The position numbers and the translations under genes were made by a program. 33,263 nt of DNA, from assembly GCA_020435335.1 (NCBI GenBank), contig JAGQZT010000080.1:1-33263 (forward strand), given 5' to 3'. This document shows, in pieces, positions 4,173 through 31,922 of this stretch; the first letter of the stretch is position 1; each line of letters begins with the position of its first letter. The notes below the pieces were generated by a model, which did not search any database, had not been told where the DNA came from, and saw only the letters and a list, made by a program, of their open reading frames with translations. This DNA is from Flavobacteriales bacterium. Its GTDB lineage: Bacteria > Bacteroidota > Bacteroidia > Flavobacteriales_E > Vicingaceae.

Positions 4173-4180
4173 TACATTTG
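4173..4180 (+). promoter_or_regulatory. -7 promoter element for rpsO
   Basis: TACATTTG is an exact match to TAnnTTTG, 46 bases before the rpsO ATG. No clear TTG lies at the -33 spacing. The short A/T-rich leader that follows shows no obvious hairpin. Confidence 0.5.
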
Positions 4181-4226
4181 CAACCTTAAATAAGTATACA
4201 TAATAAACATTAAAATTAATTTTGGC

Positions 4227-4496
4227 ATGTATTTATCAAAAGAAAAGAAAGAAGAGATCTTTAAAAAGTACGGTGGAGACACAAAGAACACAGGGTCTAC
4301 CGAAGGGCAAATTGCCTTATTCACCTACAGAATTAACCACTTAACTCAGCACTTGAAATCCAATAAAAAAGATTTCGGAACACAAAAAGCGCTGTTGGAT
4401 CTGGTTGGTAAACGAAGAAGTTTGTTGGATTACTACAAGAATAAAGATATCGTTAAGTATCGTGAGTTGATCAAAGAACTTGGAATTAGAAAGTAA
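4227..4496 (+). CDS. rpsO: 30S ribosomal protein S15
   Basis: The 89-residue length is exactly that of bacterial S15, a primary 16S rRNA-binding protein of the small-subunit platform. The family pattern is clear: an N-terminal helix with KKEEIFKKYG, then NTGSTEGQIALFTYRINHL, a second block HLKSNKKDFGTQKALLDLVGKRRSLLDY, and a final KYRELIKELGIRK helix. The order rpsO-pnp is conserved across many bacteria and is seen here. An intrinsic terminator 37 bases after the stop codon suggests that most S15 transcripts end before pnp. The leader is too short to show a clear S15 autoregulatory pseudoknot. Confidence 0.97.
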   Translation: MYLSKEKKEEIFKKYGGDTKNTGSTEGQIALFTYRINHLTQHLKSNKKDFGTQKALLDLVGKRRSLLDYYKNKDIVKYRELIKELGIRK

Positions 4497-10412: not shown

Positions 10413-13034
10413 TTACTTCAGTAAGGTCACATAACCGGTAATCAGTTTGTTTTCATGGCTACATACATCGGTAAAGCGTAATTCGTAGAAGTACACGCCC
10501 GGATCGTGTCCGCCTCCATCCCAGTGCTCGTCCGCATCGGAGCCTTCGTACACTTTAGTTCCCCAGCGGTTGAAGATCTTCAGGCTGTAGGATTCCGACA
10601 GGTCGATACCGGTAATCACCAGTTCATCATTCATGCCGTCGCCATTCGGCGTAAACACGTTCGGAACAATACTGGCTGTTTCGGACAACTCCACAAAGGT
10701 TACCTCATTGCTAAACGTTTTTACGATGTTACACAAGTAATTGTAAGCCGTTAATGTGATGGTGTATGTTCCCGGATCGGTAAACAGGTAGTTGATCGAA
10801 TCCACATTAAAGAACTGTGTACCGTCACCCATGTTCCAGTAGATGGAATCGATGTTCTGTCCGTTGATCTTCAGCTGAACATCGAACGAATCGGCCTCAC
10901 AAGGTGCCGGCGGATCGAAATCGAGCGATGCCGTGAATGTTGGTGCCTGAACCAGTTCCACATTAAAGAACGCCGTATCGGCAATGTTACAGGTACTGGA
11001 ATCGATGGCTACGTACATCACGGTATAAATACCAACGTTGCTGTACGTATAGGCCGGATTGGTTTGCGTTGATGTTCCGGAACCGTCACCGAAATCCCAA
11101 TAACTGTTCGGTGGTGCAGGACTGTTTCCGGTAAAGTTCACCACAAACGGTGTAGTACATAACAGGATGTTCGGCGGTACTACGGCATTCACCGTGGTCT
11201 TAACCGGGTTAAAATAAACCGTATCCGTAATGGTCTTCGAGTTGTTGCAGGTAAAGTCGTAAGCCTGGAAGGTGACAATGTACACACCCGGCGTGACATA
11301 GGTATAGGTCACGGACGTATCGTTGATGAACTGGCTGCCATCTCCCATATTCCAGTAAATGGAATCTGCTCCCGAACCGGTAAAGTCCAGTTGAATGGTT
11401 AAACTATCCACACACGGATCGTAAGGCGGGAATGTAAATTGAGCATCCAGTGTATCGGCCTGGCTGACCGTTACCGTAAAGTATGCCGTATCGGCAATGT
11501 TACAGGTACTGGAATCGATGACCACATAAGTCACCGTATAGGTACCGGTATCGGCATAAGTATACATCGGATTAGCTGCTGTATCAATACCTAATCCATC
11601 ACCAAAATCCCAATAGCTTTGAGGAGGAGTCGGTGTATTTCCGGTAAAGTTCACGTTGTATGGGGCAGAGCAAAGTTCCACATCCGGTGGTGGTGATGCG
11701 GTTACGGAAGTAACTACCGGATTGAAATAAACCGTATCGGTTAAGGTATACATGTTACTACATACCGTATCATAGGCTTCGAGTGTTACAATGTATGTGC
11801 CCGGCGTCGTATAGGTATAAGTCACGGAAGTATCGTTAAAGAACTGGGCGCCATTCCCCATGCTCCAGTAGAGCGAATCCGCTCCCGAACCGGTAAAGTC
11901 CAGTTGAATGGTTAAACTGTCCACACAAGGATCGTAAGGTGGGAAATAGAATTGAGCATCGAGTGAATCATTCTGAATGATATCGACATTAAAGTATGCG
12001 GTATCCGTAGGAATACAAGCTGCTGAATCAATCGCAACGTACATCACGACGTATGATCCCGTATCAGCATAGGTATATGTCGGATTTGTCGCCGTATCGA
12101 TTCCGATACCGTCTCCGAAATCCCAGTAGCTGTTCGGTGGTGGATTAGAGCCTGCCGAGAAGTTCACCGTATATGGTTGTCCGCATAGCGTAATATCGGA
12201 AGGCACATTGGCCTGGGCAGCATCTACGGTTCCGTTAGAAGAGAAACTTCCTGCTTCCAGGAATACTCCTGAATCGTACAGAGCATCACCGGCATCGGCT
12301 ATCGCCAGCTTAATGTGGTACTGCACGCCACACTGTACAATCCCGATAGCTGTTAAACGGGTGGTATATCCATCAAACTGTACGGACTGTGGTCCGGTGT
12401 TTCCGGTATTATCGACATAGTAAGAAGGGTTTGATCCCGAGTTCACATTATCGATGGTTACCGGTGTTGTAGTGCCCGGAACCAAGGCGATATTGATCGC
12501 TCCGTTGGAATACGGACCGGCAATACCGGGGCCACTTAAGAAGAACCCGAAAGCATCGTTATACCCTGCATTTACATATTCGGGGTATTCTTCCGAACCG
12601 AAGATGTAGTCGAAGTTGATCGTATCTCCGGTCGGGATAAAATCGAACTCCAGTACAGCCTGGTCATAAACGGTAACCCCTCCTCCAACTAAAGCCTGTA
12701 AATCAGGATCGACACTAACAGCTCCCGTCCCTCCTACATTGGAAGATCCCGAGTTGTTTGGCCCTACAGCCACGGAAACATCTCCTGAAGCCATCACCAC
12801 CCCGGAATCAATTCCCAAAAAAGGGTTGGTGTTTAAGGCATTGAACTCACCGATCTGTGGGTTGGACACGTTTCCGGCAACACCGTTAAACGTAATGTTA
12901 CTTGCAGTAACACCCGCTCCCAGTAATACATTTTGAACATAGTAATTAACTGTATTGGTATTGTTTGTTACCAATTGCGAAAAAGCATTCGTAAATGAAA
13001 CAAGGGCTACCAAAGCCAATAGAGACTTTCTCAT
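10413..13034 (-). CDS. Secreted choice-of-anchor L / PKD-repeat protein with T9SS type B C-terminal domain
   Basis: The 873-residue protein starts with a Sec signal peptide (MRKSLLALVALVSFTNAFSQ). Residues ~25-270 look like a choice-of-anchor-L domain, with YIFGSEEYPEYV and FGFFLSGPGI. Residues ~278-780 hold three pairs of PKD-like domains, alternating SYWDFGDG units with YW(S/N)MG(D/N)G units and ending each in a YTYxxxGxY strand. The last ~87 residues (PNVFTPNGDGMNDEL, IFNRWGTKVYE, GVYFYELRFTD) are the gliding-motility-associated C-terminal domain used for type IX secretion. The product is therefore expected to be exported and held at or released from the cell surface, perhaps as an adhesin. 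Six evenly placed Cys in the PKD pairs may form disulfides. The pairs repeat at 513 bp at DNA level. Confidence 0.9.
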   Translation of the reverse strand: MRKSLLALVALVSFTNAFSQLVTNNTNTVNYYVQNVLLGAGVTASNITFNGVAGNVSNPQIGEFNALNTNPFLGIDSGVVMASGDVSVAVGPNNSGSSNVGGTGAVSVDPDLQALVGGGVTVYDQAVLEFDFIPTGDTINFDYIFGSEEYPEYVNAGYNDAFGFFLSGPGIAGPYSNGAINIALVPGTTTPVTIDNVNSGSNPSYYVDNTGNTGPQSVQFDGYTTRLTAIGIVQCGVQYHIKLAIADAGDALYDSGVFLEAGSFSSNGTVDAAQANVPSDITLCGQPYTVNFSAGSNPPPNSYWDFGDGIGIDTATNPTYTYADTGSYVVMYVAIDSAACIPTDTAYFNVDIIQNDSLDAQFYFPPYDPCVDSLTIQLDFTGSGADSLYWSMGNGAQFFNDTSVTYTYTTPGTYIVTLEAYDTVCSNMYTLTDTVYFNPVVTSVTASPPPDVELCSAPYNVNFTGNTPTPPQSYWDFGDGLGIDTAANPMYTYADTGTYTVTYVVIDSSTCNIADTAYFTVTVSQADTLDAQFTFPPYDPCVDSLTIQLDFTGSGADSIYWNMGDGSQFINDTSVTYTYVTPGVYIVTFQAYDFTCNNSKTITDTVYFNPVKTTVNAVVPPNILLCTTPFVVNFTGNSPAPPNSYWDFGDGSGTSTQTNPAYTYSNVGIYTVMYVAIDSSTCNIADTAFFNVELVQAPTFTASLDFDPPAPCEADSFDVQLKINGQNIDSIYWNMGDGTQFFNVDSINYLFTDPGTYTITLTAYNYLCNIVKTFSNEVTFVELSETASIVPNVFTPNGDGMNDELVITGIDLSESYSLKIFNRWGTKVYEGSDADEHWDGGGHDPGVYFYELRFTDVCSHENKLITGYVTLLK
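10970..12210 (-). repeat. 513-bp tandem repeats encoding PKD-domain pairs
   Basis: Matching DNA blocks recur at a 513-bp (171-codon) step. A GGAATCGATG block at 10998 recurs at 11511, and a GGATCGTAAGG-type block at 11416 recurs at 11929 within longer near-identical stretches. About 2.4 units are visible, in frame throughout. The similarity suggests fairly recent duplication or gene conversion within the cargo gene. Confidence 0.75.
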
Positions 13035-25167: not shown

Positions 25168-25168
25168 T

Positions 25169-25197
25169 AAAAAAGCCCATCATGTGATGGGCTTTTT
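25169..25197. terminator. Bidirectional terminator between HEAT gene and secreted-protein cluster
   Basis: AAAAAAGCCCATCA and TGATGGGCTTTTTT form a perfect stem with A on the left and T on the right. It can end the HEAT-repeat transcript (+) and the seven-gene cluster (-). Confidence 0.92.
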
Positions 25198-25219
25198 TAT
25201 TAGCATGGGAGAAGAAGTA

Positions 25220-25864
25220 TTATTCTTTACTTCCTCCTCCGAATCGGAATCCGATCTTACCGGCAATTCTGAGGTCGACAGCCATATCATTACCAACATA
25301 TGGAATGTAGTTGTCCTGATCAAAATCGGTTGTGGTTAACTTATCGATGTTTGCTTCATCACTCACAGTTACACTGTTTGAAATGAACTTACCAACACCG
25401 AAAGTCACTTCCATAAAGAAAGCCCCGGCAGTTTTCCATTTGTATCCGGTTAACACACCGATAGAAATCCCTGAAGTAGAAACATCTGTTTTCCCCAATA
25501 CAGGAATCGTATCCTGCATTCCGGCGTAAACATTGTCTTTACTGCTGGATGTTCTGAATTTACCATAGAATCCCATATAAACGCCATCATTTCCTTTGTT
25601 TGGAGTGGCAAACCACTTGTACTCGGGGATGATGTTCATTTCGGAATACTTATACTCTCCGTAAAGCGGCACTTTCATATCATCAAAAGCATTCTTGGAC
25701 GACATGTTAAAGTTGATCCCAACAGAGTTTTGGCTATTCAGGGCATATTCGTATCCCAGGCCATACTTGGAGAAGGCAAAGCTCACCACATCAAGACTTA
25801 CGTCGTGTTGTGCTTTCAGGCTTGCTCCTGACAAGATTAAAGCGGCTACAATTAGTTTTTTCAT
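25220..25864 (-). CDS. Outer-membrane beta-barrel-like protein (last gene of secreted cluster)
   Basis: The 214-residue product has a Sec signal peptide, MKKLIVAALILSGASLKAQ. The mature part consists of alternating strands rich in Tyr, Gly and Phe (YGLGYEYALNSQNSVGINFN, GVYMGFYGKFR, ISIGVLTGYKWKTAGAFFMEVTFGVGKF), and ends with LRIAGKIGFRFGG before a short tail. This fits small outer-membrane beta-barrels of about eight strands. No enzymatic motif is visible. It is the promoter-distal gene of the minus-strand cluster and sits 29 bases after the gene before it, directly upstream of the shared terminator. It could be a porin-like or structural component for the cluster, but only proximity supports that. 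Confidence 0.7.
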   Translation of the reverse strand: MKKLIVAALILSGASLKAQHDVSLDVVSFAFSKYGLGYEYALNSQNSVGINFNMSSKNAFDDMKVPLYGEYKYSEMNIIPEYKWFATPNKGNDGVYMGFYGKFRTSSSKDNVYAGMQDTIPVLGKTDVSTSGISIGVLTGYKWKTAGAFFMEVTFGVGKFISNSVTVSDEANIDKLTTTDFDQDNYIPYVGNDMAVDLRIAGKIGFRFGGGSKE

Positions 25865-25893
25865 ATCTATGGGTTTAAGTTACTAGTCTAATA

Positions 25894-26844
25894 CTACCAA
25901 AGCGACTTGTAGGTTACATTGGATTTAGGTCCGTTACCGTAAGCAACTCCTATATCTCTGATCGCTTTGATCATTTCGCTCTTCTGCTGTTGCTCTTTCA
26001 GGATATACTTCCACTCTCTGTCGTCGATTTGTTTCACTTTAGCAGCGATTTTGTTCGATAACGCTTTCACTTCAGCATAGCATTTTGCATCCGGATCAAC
26101 AGAAGCCAGGATCGCTCCGGCCTCATCGGCAGCTGCCATATCCTGAGCAGCATTCCAGATAGCCTGAGCTTTTTGTAATTTCTCTTTACAATCTCTGTCG
26201 ATCATATCCTGATAAATCGGTTTGGCAGCAGCCATGGCTTTATCATAACACTCACCGCAAGCACTAGGTACGGCAGCCAGTTTGTACAACGCACCTTCGT
26301 GGTTGTTTTGATCAGCCATTACTTTAGCCTCCTTAATGATCATATCACAATTGTTTTTGTAATATTCAATGATCTTGTTTTTACCGTTCTCAATAAAGCT
26401 TTTTACACCGGCATCATTAGTTTTCAGGTTTTTAAGAGCTGCTTTGTACGCTTTGGTCTCATTTTTATCCACACCTTTTACAGTCATGTTATGAGTAGCG
26501 AAAACAGTTCCTTCGACCCCGTCACCAATGTATAACGTTACATCTAATCCGTAAGCGTGCATTGGCGGTGGACCAGGCAGGATGTTTTTTGAGTTCATGG
26601 TTACATTGGCTGTAATGATGAAACGTGCATTTTTAAAACCACCTGCTAAGCCACTGGCCGTAACCATCTGATTTAACTTGTTCTCAAGAGACAACCTGGC
26701 TTCTACAGGCATTCCGTCAATCTGAGGTGGCACGTAAGCGGTTAACATCACCTTATTGGCATCATCTGAAGTTGATTGTGCGAAGGTGAAGGTACTGGAA
26801 AGCACTAAAGTAGCAGCCAGTACGATTTGACTTAATTTCTTCAT
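25894..26844 (-). CDS. Exported protein of unknown function, two-part (secreted cluster)
   Basis: The 316-residue product has a signal peptide (LSQIVLAATLVLSSTFTFAQ). The first ~145 residues look like a compact alpha/beta domain: PPQIDGMPVEARLSLENKLNQM, ARFIITANVTMNSKNILPGPPP, and LDVTLYIGDGVEG. This layout resembles CsgG/LpoB-like periplasmic domains, in which a short helix is followed by paired strands; that is a weak impression only. The rest is helical, with Cys in SACGECYDKAMAAAK, repeated short helices of TPR-like spacing, and Cys in DRDCKEKL and DAKCYAEVK. The C-terminus YKSLW ends in Trp. It starts 20 bases after the 26865-27815 gene. I do not recognise a named family. Confidence 0.7.
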   Translation of the reverse strand: MKKLSQIVLAATLVLSSTFTFAQSTSDDANKVMLTAYVPPQIDGMPVEARLSLENKLNQMVTASGLAGGFKNARFIITANVTMNSKNILPGPPPMHAYGLDVTLYIGDGVEGTVFATHNMTVKGVDKNETKAYKAALKNLKTNDAGVKSFIENGKNKIIEYYKNNCDMIIKEAKVMADQNNHEGALYKLAAVPSACGECYDKAMAAAKPIYQDMIDRDCKEKLQKAQAIWNAAQDMAAADEAGAILASVDPDAKCYAEVKALSNKIAAKVKQIDDREWKYILKEQQQKSEMIKAIRDIGVAYGNGPKSNVTYKSLW

Positions 26845-26864
26845 ATTAATTGTTTTTTGGGTTA

Positions 26865-27815
26865 TTACTTACCACCTAACCAAATGGTGGCTCTACCTAA
26901 ACCTTTCGTTACGAGTTTATTCTCGATGTTGAAGGGTTCACCTTTTAAGTACTTGCTTAATCCTTTGGCAAATCCTCTGGCATCCATGGCACGACCTTTT
27001 TCATCGTATAATGGAATTCTTACTTGCTCGAATAAAGCCATGTTCTCGGTCATATCCGTAGTGTTGAATCTTCCTTTTTGGGTGTTTTCAGCCATCCAGT
27101 CCTCGATCAACGTACCTAACTCATCATCACCGAAATCTTCGCTTTCCAGGTCGTAATCCCAATCACTCCATCTTTTAACGCGGATGATGATCTCACGACC
27201 ATTTTCGAACATATCGTCGAAGTGTGCCTGTAACTGGCTGTTGAAGTTATCGATGTGAGCCGTTACAGCTTCCTGTAACAACACAGGTACTTCAGCAGAG
27301 AAAGAAGGTGCACCGGTACCTTGAGCAGAAGCTACTTGTTTATCGGTGTAAGAATCCAATCCTCTCAGGATGAAAGTAATTGATTTCTTAGGACCTGTAG
27401 CATTCACAGTCCAGGTTAATTCCATAATGATATCGGCTTTCGCTTTCTTTTTCAATACATCAACCGGGCTTTCTGCCATTTCATCACCCGATTTGGAAGT
27501 TCTCATCGCATCTTCCGCATCATCACTTTCCAGTGATTTCATAACGGATTCCAAATCTTTCAGCGGGAAACCTCTTTCGGACATCATGCCGTTAATGGCA
27601 CTCACAACCAATTTCACTTCCGTATTTTGTTGAAAGGCTGTTTTATAATCAGGAATAACCACTTTAGTTCCTTCATCGTCAAATTCCATCGTGTAACCGT
27701 TTTTTACACACCAGTTATCACTTGGAACAACCATAATGGTTGGTTTTTTTGCTTGTCCGAATACAGTAGCAAAACCTACCAAAACAAGACTTAACGTTAT
27801 TACTATTCTTTTCAT
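26865..27815 (-). CDS. Exported protein of unknown function, DUF6175-like (secreted cluster)
   Basis: The 316-residue product has a signal peptide, MKRIVITLSLVLVGFATVFGQ. The mature start is KKPTIMVVPSDNWCVKNGY, followed by a helical segment (FQQNTEVKLVVSAINGMMSERGFPLKDLE) and strands such as ADIIMELTWTVN and SITFILRGLDSYTDKQVA. A second half reads HFDDMFENGREIIIRVKR and ends with GRATIWLGGK. The order of a nucleotide-free alpha/beta domain with MVVPSDxWC resembles Bacteroidota proteins labelled DUF6175; that label is from memory and was not checked. Overall it resembles CsgG-like or LpoB-like envelope proteins in layout. It lies 31 bases after the lipoprotein gene and 20 before the next. Confidence 0.7.
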   Translation of the reverse strand: MKRIVITLSLVLVGFATVFGQAKKPTIMVVPSDNWCVKNGYTMEFDDEGTKVVIPDYKTAFQQNTEVKLVVSAINGMMSERGFPLKDLESVMKSLESDDAEDAMRTSKSGDEMAESPVDVLKKKAKADIIMELTWTVNATGPKKSITFILRGLDSYTDKQVASAQGTGAPSFSAEVPVLLQEAVTAHIDNFNSQLQAHFDDMFENGREIIIRVKRWSDWDYDLESEDFGDDELGTLIEDWMAENTQKGRFNTTDMTENMALFEQVRIPLYDEKGRAMDARGFAKGLSKYLKGEPFNIENKLVTKGLGRATIWLGGK

Positions 27816-27846
27816 TGTAATGTTTATTTTGATTTAGTTGTTATAA

Positions 27847-28353
27847 TTATTTAGGTAAGATTCCATCTTGAATCATTCTTTCTTTGAGCTTAGCCCGTTG
27901 CACACGGATAATAACACCGTACAACTCCTGGTCACCCATTTTCCCTCTTCCTTTTACGACAGAGAAATGCAGGTCGGATCCGTCTTCACCGGTAATAAAC
28001 TCTTTGTAAGCTCCACCGTCAGCAAAGAAAGCGTTGAAATAATCTTCATGTTTTTCTCTGGCATTCGGATCAAATAAGATCGGCTTTGCGTTGCAACCTT
28101 TATTGCTGATGATGCCTTTGAAAAGTACATCGCTCAACCCGTTCTTTTTAGCTTGCTCAACAGCGTCTTCGCGGTTACGGCCTGTTCCCCACCCTTTTAC
28201 GGTTTGAGATCCGTCTCCTTCAACGCCCATGCATTCTGTTTTGTGTTCGTAAGCACCGGCTACATTACGCTGTGCAGCGCGACAGGAGCTCAGCATGCTA
28301 ACCAAAGCAATCGAAAAGAGCGTGCCTGTAAGTATTCTGTTAATTTTTTTCAT
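27847..28353 (-). CDS. Small lipoprotein of unknown function, paralogue of its neighbour (secreted cluster)
   Basis: The 168-residue product has a lipoprotein signal with lipobox LSSC at Cys24, so it should be anchored to the inner or outer membrane. The mature domain contains ECMGVEGDG, VKGWGTGRN, AVEQAKKNGLSDVLF, GCNAKPILFDPN, and YFNAFFADGGAYKEFI. The same framework occurs in the product of 28365-28895, so the two arose by duplication. Two Cys in ECMG and GCNAKP are shared and could form a disulfide. The Ala-rich helix between strands recalls FlgT-N/LPP20-type domains, which is inference. It starts 11 bases after the paralogue's stop codon. Confidence 0.75.
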   Translation of the reverse strand: MKKINRILTGTLFSIALVSMLSSCRAAQRNVAGAYEHKTECMGVEGDGSQTVKGWGTGRNREDAVEQAKKNGLSDVLFKGIISNKGCNAKPILFDPNAREKHEDYFNAFFADGGAYKEFITGEDGSDLHFSVVKGRGKMGDQELYGVIIRVQRAKLKERMIQDGILPK

Positions 28354-28364
28354 CGTTTTAAATT

Positions 28365-28895
28365 TTACAATACTGAACTTAACCCTCGAACAACACCGGC
28401 TGCTTCTAGATCTTTTCTAAGTCGATCCGACATCGCCGTTACAACAACACCTACTTTGTATTTATAGCCTTTCAGTTTTACACCTACTACTTCAGGAGTA
28501 GAGTCACCCGAATGAGAAACGAATTTCATGTACTTCCCGCCATCAGCAAAGAAATCATCAAAAAACTCTTTCTTTTGGTGCTCCACGCTTGGATCGCTCA
28601 CCAATGGTTTTTGAGCTGTACAGCCCGGTGCTCCTCCGGCATACCCTTGAAAGATAATACCATGTACGGCATTCTTTTTGGCCTGACCGGTAGCTACTTT
28701 AGCATTTTTCGAATAGGACCATACTTTGATCACTTTCGTTCCTGGTTTACCAATACCAACACATTCGATCTCGTATTTCCAATCTTCCGTGTCTTCATTG
28801 GCCTTTTTTTGTTTGTTCAATTGGGCACTGGATGTTGTTGCAAATGCCAGCATAGCGACAATAACAACTCCGGTTTTTAACATTGCTTTTTTCAT
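28365..28895 (-). CDS. Secreted paralogue of the cluster lipoprotein
   Basis: The 176-residue product has a Sec signal peptide (MKKAMLKTGVVIVAMLAFATTSSAQ) and no lipobox, so it should be soluble in the periplasm or exported further. The mature domain follows the neighbouring lipoprotein: ECVGIGKPG, VIKVWSYSKN, GQAKKNAVHGIIFQG, GCTAQKPLVSDPS, FFDDFFADGGKYMKFV and a C-terminal strand YKVGVVVTAM. Both shared Cys are kept. Its C-terminal helix LRKDLEAAGV differs from the lipoprotein's. The pair suggests one membrane-tethered and one free copy of the same fold. It starts 26 bases after the 469-residue gene ends. Confidence 0.75.
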   Translation of the reverse strand: MKKAMLKTGVVIVAMLAFATTSSAQLNKQKKANEDTEDWKYEIECVGIGKPGTKVIKVWSYSKNAKVATGQAKKNAVHGIIFQGYAGGAPGCTAQKPLVSDPSVEHQKKEFFDDFFADGGKYMKFVSHSGDSTPEVVGVKLKGYKYKVGVVVTAMSDRLRKDLEAAGVVRGLSSVL

Positions 28896-28921
28896 ATTGA
28901 TTGAATTTAGTTATAGTTAAA

Positions 28922-30331
28922 TTAATTTATTTGTCTGATTAACATTCCAGGGAACAAGCCTTTGGAACTTCCTTTGAAATGCGTGAATTCCAGTTGGTTT
29001 TCCGGTGCGATCGGATTTCCGTTCTCATCCAGTTCCTGCTCCTGTCCTTCTCCGGCATTGAAACGGTTATCCCAGATGCTCTTTTTATCTACTTTAATAA
29101 CTGCTTTACGTTTGTATTTCAGTTTACCTTCCGCATCATATTCCGGCATCAATACTTCATACTTGTCACCGCCTTCCAACTCTTCTTTCATACCGATTTT
29201 AGCTCCCAGAGGATCTACACTTACTAAAGGTGTTTTGGTTCTGAACGGTTCAAACTTACGCTCCAGCTTATTGTAAACGGAGTTGATTGACTTCAGGGTG
29301 GCATTTTTAATGATCATTTGCTCATCTTCGGCATTAGCTCCTAAACCGGAAACCAAAGCCGATGCCTTTTGGTAACCCAATAATTTCAGGCTAAAGAAAT
29401 CGGTATTATCAAATGCAGCTTTCTTATCCGGATTAATGCTGTTGGCATCCATCCAGTAATCATTCCAGAAATAAGCCTCTACCGAATCAGTCCATACCAA
29501 CTGGTACAGGTAAGCAGTAGTCCATACGGAATACCCTTCTTTGGCTTTCTCATAAACAGCATCAGCCGTTTTAAATGCAGCATCTTTCAACGCAGCAGGC
29601 AATTTCTCAGCCGTCGCTTTGGCGATGTCTCTTGCAGCCGCAGCATAAGGCTCATTGCTTTCAAACTTGGAATTACTAACCACGACGAACGTGCTGCTTA
29701 GTAACTCGATCCCGGCATCTTTTAACATGTCCAGACCTCTTTGAGTACTGGCTGCAGCAGCGGCATCCTGGGCCGAAGCATCGTATGCTCCTCGTTCCTG
29801 GATCAGGTTCATGTCAAAGGCACCGTTTTCATCTCTGTTGAACCATTTCGCAATGATTTGATTGGCTACCTTATTTTCTTTCAGGTATTTATCGATCGTC
29901 GGACTTAAATCCTTTTCGTCTTTCTTTTTTGCTTTCTCTCCTTCAGGAACAACCGGTTCTACATAATAGCTTTCGAGTTTAAACGACTTGTCTCCAACCG
30001 TATGATCGTTAAACTTATCCGGCACCGGTGATTCGTTAAAAGTAGAAAGGATCAGATCGGATTTCGGCAATTTCGTATCCTCAATGATCATGGTATGAAG
30101 TGAACTTCTACGGTATTTAATGATTTCCGTTTTCTTATCCCCTTTTTGAAGTTTATTATCTTCTTTTTTCTCTTTATCCTTGTCTTTATTTTTATCCTTC
30201 TTCTTATCCCCTTCTTCTGTTTGTTGCTCTTCCTGTACTTCCGTATCCTGAGCACTTGCGGTATTCATTGCTGCAACCATAGCGAAGCATACGAGACCGG
30301 CTTTCATGAAATTCAGTAAATTTCTTTTCAT
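28922..30331 (-). CDS. Large exported protein with charged linker, unknown function (secreted cluster)
   Basis: The 469-residue product starts at MKRNLLNFMKAGLVCFAMVAAMNTASAQ, a typical signal peptide. The frame can be extended by 15 codons to an ATG at 30376, but those codons come from a hairpin, so the shorter start is preferred. After cleavage come ~45 residues almost only Glu, Lys, Asp and Gln. The folded part has an Ala-rich segment (RGAYDASAQDAAAAASTQRG), a strand LLSSTFVVVSNSKF, an aromatic block (VWTTAYLYQLVWTDSVEAYFWNDYW), and a C-terminal domain ending FPGMLIRQIN. The middle resembles uncharacterised Bacteroidota envelope proteins seen from memory, but no named family was recognised. 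Confidence 0.72.
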   Translation of the reverse strand: MKRNLLNFMKAGLVCFAMVAAMNTASAQDTEVQEEQQTEEGDKKKDKNKDKDKEKKEDNKLQKGDKKTEIIKYRRSSLHTMIIEDTKLPKSDLILSTFNESPVPDKFNDHTVGDKSFKLESYYVEPVVPEGEKAKKKDEKDLSPTIDKYLKENKVANQIIAKWFNRDENGAFDMNLIQERGAYDASAQDAAAAASTQRGLDMLKDAGIELLSSTFVVVSNSKFESNEPYAAAARDIAKATAEKLPAALKDAAFKTADAVYEKAKEGYSVWTTAYLYQLVWTDSVEAYFWNDYWMDANSINPDKKAAFDNTDFFSLKLLGYQKASALVSGLGANAEDEQMIIKNATLKSINSVYNKLERKFEPFRTKTPLVSVDPLGAKIGMKEELEGGDKYEVLMPEYDAEGKLKYKRKAVIKVDKKSIWDNRFNAGEGQEQELDENGNPIAPENQLEFTHFKGSSKGLFPGMLIRQIN

Positions 30332-30351
30332 AGGTAGTTTGTTAAAGTAAA

Positions 30352-30387
30352 AAATTAAAGGTATGCCTTTGTACATACCTTTAATTT
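30352..30387 (-). terminator. Internal hairpin terminator/attenuator in the secreted cluster
   Basis: A perfect 14-bp inverted repeat, AAATTAAAGGTATG with CATACCTTTAATTT, surrounds an 8-base loop. On the minus strand it is followed directly by TTTTTT (30354-30349). It lies 9 bases after the stop codon of the first gene and 20 bases before the second gene's ATG, so it should cut expression of the other six genes relative to the first. Confidence 0.8.
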
Positions 30388-30396
30388 AAATTTCTA

Positions 30397-30864
30397 TTAT
30401 TCTGTTGCGCCTTGATTTTTGATGGCCTCCAATTGACCCGGAATGTTCTTTTGAGTCTCATTCAGGGCTTTGGTAGCAGCATTTACTGCCTTTACAGCCT
30501 TCATGGAGTTTGTTTTTGGAGTGATTCCTTTGGCTTCTGTTAAAACGTCTTTAGACTTCCCTAATAAACCTTTTACTTCTTCCATTTGTCCGTCCAAATC
30601 TTTTTTAATACCCTCGGCATCACTTACGCTGTTCGCAGCGTCAGATAACTGAGCAGCAACTTTTTGGTTCTTCTCATACAGGTTAAAAGAAGAGTTCACG
30701 AAGTCATCAGTAGCTGCGTGTCCAACTTTTTCCGGACGCTCTATGGCTTTAGCTTCCTTTTCTTTGCCTTTGTTCTTTTCTTTTTTCTGAGCGAATGTCG
30801 TTGAAGATACTCCTACAACTAAAAACGCAATCATTAAAACTTTGGTTAATGTACTTGTTTTCAT
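30397..30864 (-). CDS. Small secreted helical protein, first gene of secreted cluster
   Basis: The 155-residue product has a signal peptide (MKTSTLTKVLMIAFLVVGVSSTTFAQ), a short Lys/Glu-rich stretch (KKEKNKGKEKEAKAIERPEK), then helical sequence. Residues ~55-150 show heptad-like spacing of hydrophobics (DDFVNSSFNLYEKNQKVAAQ, LDGQMEEVKGLLGKSKDVLT, AVKAVNAATKALNETQKNIP), consistent with a coiled coil or helical bundle. It is probably periplasmic. The Lys/Glu-rich stretch recalls the linker of the next gene's product. It is promoter-proximal, and the hairpin after it should make it the most abundant product of the cluster. No family is recognised. Confidence 0.7.
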   Translation of the reverse strand: MKTSTLTKVLMIAFLVVGVSSTTFAQKKEKNKGKEKEAKAIERPEKVGHAATDDFVNSSFNLYEKNQKVAAQLSDAANSVSDAEGIKKDLDGQMEEVKGLLGKSKDVLTEAKGITPKTNSMKAVKAVNAATKALNETQKNIPGQLEAIKNQGATE

Positions 30865-30902: not shown

Positions 30903-30910
30903 CAAATATA
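30903..30910 (-). promoter_or_regulatory. -7 promoter element of the secreted cluster
   Basis: On the minus strand 30910-30903 reads TATATTTG, an exact TAnnTTTG, 38 bases before the first ATG of the cluster. A palindrome CCTTAAGG (30930-30937) covers the -33 area. Confidence 0.55.
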
Positions 30911-31035: not shown

Positions 31036-31785
31036 TTATACCTGATGCAATATATAATTGTTTAAATTGTTAACAGAGCTGCTAAAAGTAAATCCATTGT
31101 TTACCAGGTAGTAGTTCTGCTGATCTACCGTCCGGTGGTAAGCCAGTTTCGCAAACTCCAGTTTGTTGGATTCAAAGGTAAACTCATTCATGAGTACCAC
31201 GACCTGCTCGGTTGTGAGCCAATTGTGTTGAAGCGCCAATTGAACGGTAGTCATTTTACTGTTGTCGAAACTCGTAGCACTCACACTGTTCAGCAATTGG
31301 TTAAAGCTCCCGTGAGCCATTCCCTGCGGCAGGTTGCATCCGGGACTCCCATATTGTCCATCCATATGCCCGCATCCTCCAGGAGGTGTACCACACGAAT
31401 GGTTTGTACCTCCGTAATGTCCTCCAGGATTGTGATGGTGTTTCTTTTTCTTTTTTTGAACCGTAATGTCTAATCCCCTGTATGGATTTACCGTAGCAAA
31501 AACAACCGAATGAAATGGGATTTGAACCGTACCGTTGTACAGCACCTTTTTAAACCCACCGTGTCCATAAGCTGCCGGTGTCGTTTGAATTACCTGCAAC
31601 TGGTGAATCCCTGGGGTTAAGGGCTGGTCAAAGTAATTGGAATAACCAAAAGGTTGACCGTCGACCACCATCGTAAAGGCGTGGTTGTTCCACAGCTTCA
31701 GGTTTAAGCTTGAGGTTTTGTAAGCGTTGTTGGCATATCCCGTTAATCCAATCAACAGGACAAAAATTAAACTGATCTTTTTCAT
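31036..31785 (-). CDS. Secreted DUF4476-like protein with His/Gly/Cys-rich linker
   Basis: The 249-residue product has a signal peptide (MKKISLIFVLLIGLTGYANN). Residues ~25-115 form a strand-rich N-terminal part (LNLKLWNNHAFTMVVDGQPF, GIHQLQVIQTTP). Residues ~113-160 are a linker, KKKKKHHHNPGGHYGGTNHS followed by CGTPPGGCGHMDGQYGSPGC, rich in His, Gly and Cys. The last ~90 residues (FNQLLNSVSATSFDNSKMTT, LTTEQVVVLMNEFTFESNKL) match the DUF4476 helical repeat pattern of Bacteroidota. The start at 31785 follows a strong GGAGGA site and fits the signal peptide; an upstream in-frame ATG at 31839 would spoil it. It has its own terminator and seems separate from the cluster. Function is unknown. 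Confidence 0.8.
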   Translation of the reverse strand: MKKISLIFVLLIGLTGYANNAYKTSSLNLKLWNNHAFTMVVDGQPFGYSNYFDQPLTPGIHQLQVIQTTPAAYGHGGFKKVLYNGTVQIPFHSVVFATVNPYRGLDITVQKKKKKHHHNPGGHYGGTNHSCGTPPGGCGHMDGQYGSPGCNLPQGMAHGSFNQLLNSVSATSFDNSKMTTVQLALQHNWLTTEQVVVLMNEFTFESNKLEFAKLAYHRTVDQQNYYLVNNGFTFSSSVNNLNNYILHQV

Positions 31786-31922
31786 AATAAATCCTCCATC
31801 TTTGGTTTGATGTGATGTTGATTCCAAACCCTGTGCCAAAAATTATGGAATCATTTTTGATCCTTCATCTATAAGTGAAACCGTTCGTAACATTTTTAAT
31901 CCGGCATGCGTTTTATTTTAAT

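Follow-up and report, generated by a model that had tools for sequence, protein, structure and literature searches.

What is the function of a row of genes whose products all carry an export signal and include no recognised enzyme? This question is raised by a minus-strand block (30864-25220) in the window, the 33,263-nt stretch of Vicingaceae DNA analysed here, which an earlier note had read as a single seven-gene unit of the kind that would encode an outer-membrane-linked assembly or sorting machine. The genes are named g7 to g1 in the order of transcription (Table 1). ORF coordinates and inspection of the N-termini confirmed seven exported minus-strand products and short gaps of 11-65 nt (from g7 to g1: 65, 26, 11, 31, 20 and 29 nt), and revealed the lipobox LSSC in g4. 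The statement that no enzyme can be recognised also holds: Pfam matches are limited to DUF6175 in g3 and DUF3575 in g1, NCBIfam recognised nothing among the window proteins, sequence searches against solved structures gave no useful match, and our literature search found no paper naming DUF6175. The proposed lipoprotein and its soluble paralogue, g4 and g5, are indeed related (hhalign E 2e-41). A paralogous origin of g2 and g3, which are equally long, was ruled out by a comparison showing no relationship between them.

Table 1. Coordinates of the genes and signals of the block, and of a separate operon discussed in the text.
Feature	Position	Strand	Description
-7 promoter box	30903..30910	-	TATATTTG, Bacteroidota-type, upstream of g7; read from sequence
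g7	30397..30864	-	155 aa, exported, lysine-rich, helical; accessory, family-specific
g7-g6 hairpin	30352..30387	-	terminator-like, 15 pairs and T tract
g6	28922..30331	-	469 aa, exported, charged linker; core
g5	28365..28895	-	176 aa, exported, soluble; g4 paralogue; core
g4	27847..28353	-	168-aa lipoprotein; g5 paralogue; core
g3	26865..27815	-	316 aa, DUF6175; predicted CsgG/PelC/FlgT-like fold; core
g2	25894..26844	-	316 aa, exported; alpha/beta in its N-terminal part, resembling helical repeats in its C-terminal part; core
g1	25220..25864	-	214 aa, DUF3575, outer-membrane barrel-like; accessory, family-specific
Terminator hairpin 3' of g1	about 25168..25198	-	read from sequence
CsgG-LPP20 operon	L139:8351-11100; L140:8606-11394; L141:8393-11193		separate operon in Bacteroidota

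A core flanked by two accessory genes

The -7 element placed upstream of g7 by the earlier note was found again, and most of eight relatives have a TANNTTTG-type box at the same position, embedded in conserved sequence (TATATTTGTTANCCTAACTAA). The single terminator of that description is real in so far as a hairpin follows g1, but a second, terminator-like hairpin separates g7 from g6. It is present in all eight family relatives examined, conserved in position and differing in sequence. An alternative in-frame ATG at 30376 would extend g6 to 484 aa, but lies inside this hairpin. The gaps within the core showed no comparable hairpin in the eight relatives, whereas a further one lies between g2 and g1 in three relatives. 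Accordingly, the block consists of a core, g6-g5-g4-g3-g2, with an accessory gene on either side that can be regulated separately, and transcription would be partially terminated after g7. Thus, all seven reading frames of the proposed unit are real, but the unit is not homogeneous.

The distribution of the two accessories is narrow. g1 (34 bits to DUF3575, PF12099, versus a cut-off of 21.1) is found alongside the core in each of the 11 genomes with DUF6175 among 41 relatives, and none was seen outside the window's family in the fetched loci. g7 is present in 10 of the 11 DUF6175-positive relatives and was likewise absent from all loci examined outside the family. One relative (G017) carries the core without g7, and in another (G009) the same chromosomal site holds a divergent g7 homologue but no core (L187:1068-1580), beside a DUF4476-like gene. 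This family-specific pattern, with g7 missing from one core-bearing genome and a divergent copy standing alone in another, weakens the idea that g7 encodes a dedicated client. In the window, g7 is adjoined by a gene for an exported DUF4476 protein (31036-31839, minus strand) with its own hairpin downstream, and it is this gene that has a similar counterpart in G009.

Conservation and history of the core

Searching a species-genome collection with g3 yielded 79 loci from Flavobacteriaceae, Vicingaceae, Prevotellaceae, Tannerellaceae, Rikenellaceae, Saprospiraceae and others, and the 78 loci longer than 4.5 kb were used to cluster all ORFs. Only four families recur, namely g6 (76 loci), g5/g4 (78), g3 (77) and g2 (77), the next commonest family being found in 19 loci. 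Wherever the core is complete its order is g6-g5-(g4)-g3-g2, with median gaps of 11-17 nt, and it is preserved as a whole in Prevotella and Tannerella, in marine Flavobacteriaceae and in deeper-branching members of the phylum. The check that the earlier note had named for a system, conservation of five or more of the seven genes together, is thus passed across the phylum by the five core genes, representing four families. Neither an inner-membrane component nor a cargo gene recurs with the core in the 78 loci. Three of the four families are absent from Pfam and the fourth, DUF6175, is of unknown function, which makes the core a good candidate for a secretion or envelope machine.

Could these genes be no system at all, but neighbours co-inherited by chance? 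The site does not vary within the genus, and linkage there is simply inherited; across the phylum, however, the flanks of the 78 loci are unrelated and the core is intact, indicating an arrangement beyond chance. Chance inheritance is also contradicted by phylogenetic profiles in 296 genomes sampled evenly over the phylum, where DUF6175 occurs in 13 genomes and the g4/g5 family in 14, including all 13 with DUF6175. Matches to g6 (7 genomes) all fall within this set, and canonical g2 (5 genomes) is found exclusively with DUF6175. The hypergeometric values for co-occurrence, 8.5e-22 and 9e-11, serve to order the evidence and should not be taken as true probabilities, as related genomes are not independent. 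Moreover, g6 co-occurs even when unlinked: a g6-like gene and the DUF6175 gene lie on different contigs in four distant genomes (G118, G176, G276 and G327), as do a g6-like gene and a g4/g5-family gene in G319. In distant genomes of other families (f44, f46), a g5-type domain is fused to DUF6175 in one protein, which argues that g5 and g3 act together. Mere chance therefore appears scarcely credible as an explanation.

The g5/g4 family varies in copy number, with one g5-type gene in 37 of the 78 loci and a g5 and g4 pair in 41. The two states require about six changes on the g3 tree, so that the second copy arose or disappeared repeatedly; the single-copy loci include one truncated contig. On the same tree, the g3 of a record labelled Chlorobiota groups inside the Flavobacteriaceae, and the record is therefore probably mislabelled. 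At three loci, g6 is immediately preceded by another g6 paralogue (L104:12696-14372, L061:5889-7490 and L067:5315-6952), which in L104 contains an N-terminal UVR motif.

In the genus, the block usually has a HEAT-repeat gene (which adjoins that for GAPDH) on one side and an S41 peptidase gene on the other. In G012, a 97% complete genome, these two genes are directly adjacent, leaving an empty site, and DUF6175 was not found anywhere in the genome. Thus, the core is dispensable within the genus and is cleanly present or absent, which offers a natural comparison. A defence or phage origin was considered and rejected, as PADLOC and PHROGs gave nothing convincing and the sole "phage" record is a 9-kb bacterial-looking fragment. 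This record, MT836698 (L145:568-7075), is filed as a bacteriophage from human faeces and contains the whole core, in which g5 and g4 are separated by an additional gene for an exported protein of 192 aa; a WG-repeat-like gene lies upstream.

Predicted fold of g3 and its partners

g3 is matched by Pfam DUF6175 (PF19672) with 416 bits versus a cut-off of 23, over positions 1-292 of the 293 of the model. Its AlphaFold2 model, built from 30 sequences (pLDDT 85, pTM 0.75), was compared with the PDB by Foldseek. GNA1162 was the best match (E 3.5e-4, probability 1.00), followed by CsgG (7e-4) and FlgT (8e-4), with further matches to an LPHT-ring protein, PqiC-type DUF330 (2iqi), PelC and LpoB; overall, this predicted model matches the fold group with E-values of 3.5e-4 to 1e-3 and probabilities of 0.92-1.00. 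The matched proteins are linked to the outer membrane, as lipoproteins or as ring proteins. Similarity to the ring proteins is moderate by TM-score (for PelC and GNA1162, 0.5-0.57 when normalised to the target and 0.24-0.30 when normalised to the query), at a sequence identity of about 11%. Judged by the model, g3 would belong to the CsgG/PelC/FlgT/LpoB fold group, and it may form a ring. Among the proteins of this group, PqiC forms a toroid of eight subunits and PelC a ring of twelve that sits on the barrel PelB, both rings being docked on the outer membrane (PMC10897342, PMC12141448). The link of DUF6175 to this fold provides a concrete hypothesis to test. Our preferred reading, put forward as possible rather than probable, is that the core forms a periplasmic assembly docked on the outer membrane, with g3 as a ring-type protein, which serves as an export or assembly portal.

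The strand-helix pattern of g4 and g5 and an insert after the helix had led us to expect members of the LPP20/FlgP family as described in PMC12222027. This assignment was rejected: Pfam LPP20 matched none of the 32 and 30 members examined, and the model of g5 (fold b-b-a-b-a, pLDDT 77) had no match in the PDB.

In three genomes (G193, G197 and G148), a small lipoprotein, DUF6175 and g2 follow each other in the same order as in the core. The gene at the g6 position in G193 matches Pfam CsgG (21.0 bits versus a cut-off of 20.8), but g6 and this protein (locus L113) share no homology detectable by hhalign (probability 3%), and their equivalence is thus positional only. The same CsgG-like protein scores near the cut-off of LpoB and, together with the presence of LpoB and PqiC among the matches of g3, would fit a periplasmic regulator of peptidoglycan or lipid handling that binds an envelope enzyme. 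We regard such a role as improbable, because LpoB is a single lipoprotein, such a role would not call for five conserved exported genes, and no enzyme of a peptidoglycan or lipid pathway recurs nearby.

Proteins of the LPP20 type appear next to the g5-DUF6175 fusion: its adjoining gene encodes a Pfam LPP20 protein in L118 and L123, and the genes beside it in L116, L117 and L120 resemble these two by sequence. The N-terminal part of g2 in turn resembles the C-terminal domain of LPP20-type proteins (hhalign 80%). There is also a separate Bacteroidota operon in which a CsgG-family gene overlaps an LPP20 lipoprotein gene by four bases and the CsgG-family protein has an N-terminal lipobox-like and repeat-like part. 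This operon (7 genomes) and DUF6175 (11) never occur together among the 41 relatives, but by our estimate (about 0.09) this separation is not significant, and the genomes are not independent.

Elsewhere, barrels other than g1 accompany the core. In L069, L073 and L102 an unrelated, Pfam-positive outer-membrane barrel is encoded directly upstream of g6, and in L090, L097, L115, L118 and L123 g6 itself has a C-terminal extension with barrel-like sequence, whose nature is supported in L123 by a sub-threshold Pfam match. It seems that the same type of partner, a barrel, has been recruited in several ways, although the evidence is indirect, as these genomes commonly encode small barrels. With about 200 aa, small barrels are too narrow for export pores, which counts against a portal, and they suit anchoring better than export. 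They would thus fit the closest rival of our reading, a purely structural ring or scaffold comparable to the FlgP, FlgT and FapH rings or the PqiC toroid, which stabilises the outer membrane or tethers a machine encoded elsewhere and exports nothing. In line with this, no cargo gene is conserved, and FlgT as well as PqiC are among the matches of g3, PqiC and FapH being scaffolding rings. However, CsgG and PelC match g3 as well as FlgT does, and the partner machine would have to be encoded elsewhere, as none recurs beside the core. We consider a purely structural role somewhat less likely than a portal.

Relation to known systems and proposed assembly

By predicted fold and organisation, the module resembles the CsgG, PelC, FlgT and LPP20 systems, but it is not a member of any named system: defining features of these four were tested and are lacking. 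With curli secretion (CsgG, type VIII) it shares the CsgG-like predicted fold of g3, Sec export of all parts and the absence of an inner-membrane engine. In contrast to curli, the core includes the additional families g6, g5/g4 and g2, lacks a conserved curli subunit and a csgE/csgF-like gene, and has no lipobox in g3 (0 of 77 proteins), which the ring subunits CsgG and PelC possess. Pfam CsgG matched neither the window proteins nor anything else in the window's genome. The PelC-like predicted fold and the outer-membrane barrel partner recall PelBC, but the barrel of PelB has 16 strands and PelB includes a large periplasmic portion, neither such a barrel nor Pel synthesis genes lie beside the core, and no polysaccharide genes recur among the flank families.

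The FlgT/FlgP/FlgO rings and Lpp20 are similar in the structural match of FlgT and in the LPP20-type protein of distant relatives' operons, whereas flagellar families do not recur in the flanks of the 78 loci and g4/g5 match FlgP/LPP20 neither by sequence nor by fold. PqiC, GNA1162 and LpoB, despite their structural similarity to g3, are single lipoproteins tied to inner-membrane partners, none of which recurs with the core. Finally, g3 and g1 are clear members of DUF6175 and DUF3575, but both are families of unknown function under which the operon has not been described.

In the portal reading, the five core products would build an envelope assembly that docks on the outer membrane from the periplasmic side. 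Its ring-type subunit would be g3, joined by the paralogues g5 and g4 with g4 as lipid anchor, while g6 would link the assembly to a small outer-membrane barrel (here g1, elsewhere other barrels or a fused barrel-like part) and g2 would serve as a helical-repeat adaptor. Such an assembly would most likely be a Sec-fed portal or platform for an exported client, like CsgG or PelC. The fixed gene order, the 13 of 13 co-occurrence, the g5-g3 fusion, the fold matches of g3, the barrel partners, the CsgG match in G193 and the absence of an inner-membrane component support this reading. It is weakened by the moderate TM-scores, a g3 without lipobox, a g5 without structural match, the lack of detectable homology between g6 and the CsgG-like protein of G193, the absence of conserved cargo, and a g7 that is family-specific and survives without the core.

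Of the outer-membrane-linked assembly suggested by the earlier note, the part concerning the core gains support from the predicted fold of g3 and the recurrent pairing with barrels, whereas g7 and g1 are lineage-specific, g7 is set off by a hairpin, and a sorting machine is no more than a suggestion. With similar reserve, we propose that the core may be a new outer-membrane export or assembly apparatus of Bacteroidota that is defined by DUF6175 and has no inner-membrane engine, its parts being a CsgG/PelC-type ring, the paralogues g5 and g4, and a small barrel that can be exchanged.

Two further features of the window concern the host. A large PKD-repeat protein (10413-13034, minus strand) carries a CHU_C signal for type IX secretion, which suggests that this secretion system is at work in the host. 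Shortly upstream of the polynucleotide phosphorylase gene, Rfam identifies an S15-Flavobacteria ribosomal protein leader (4173-4229, plus strand; 54.3 bits).
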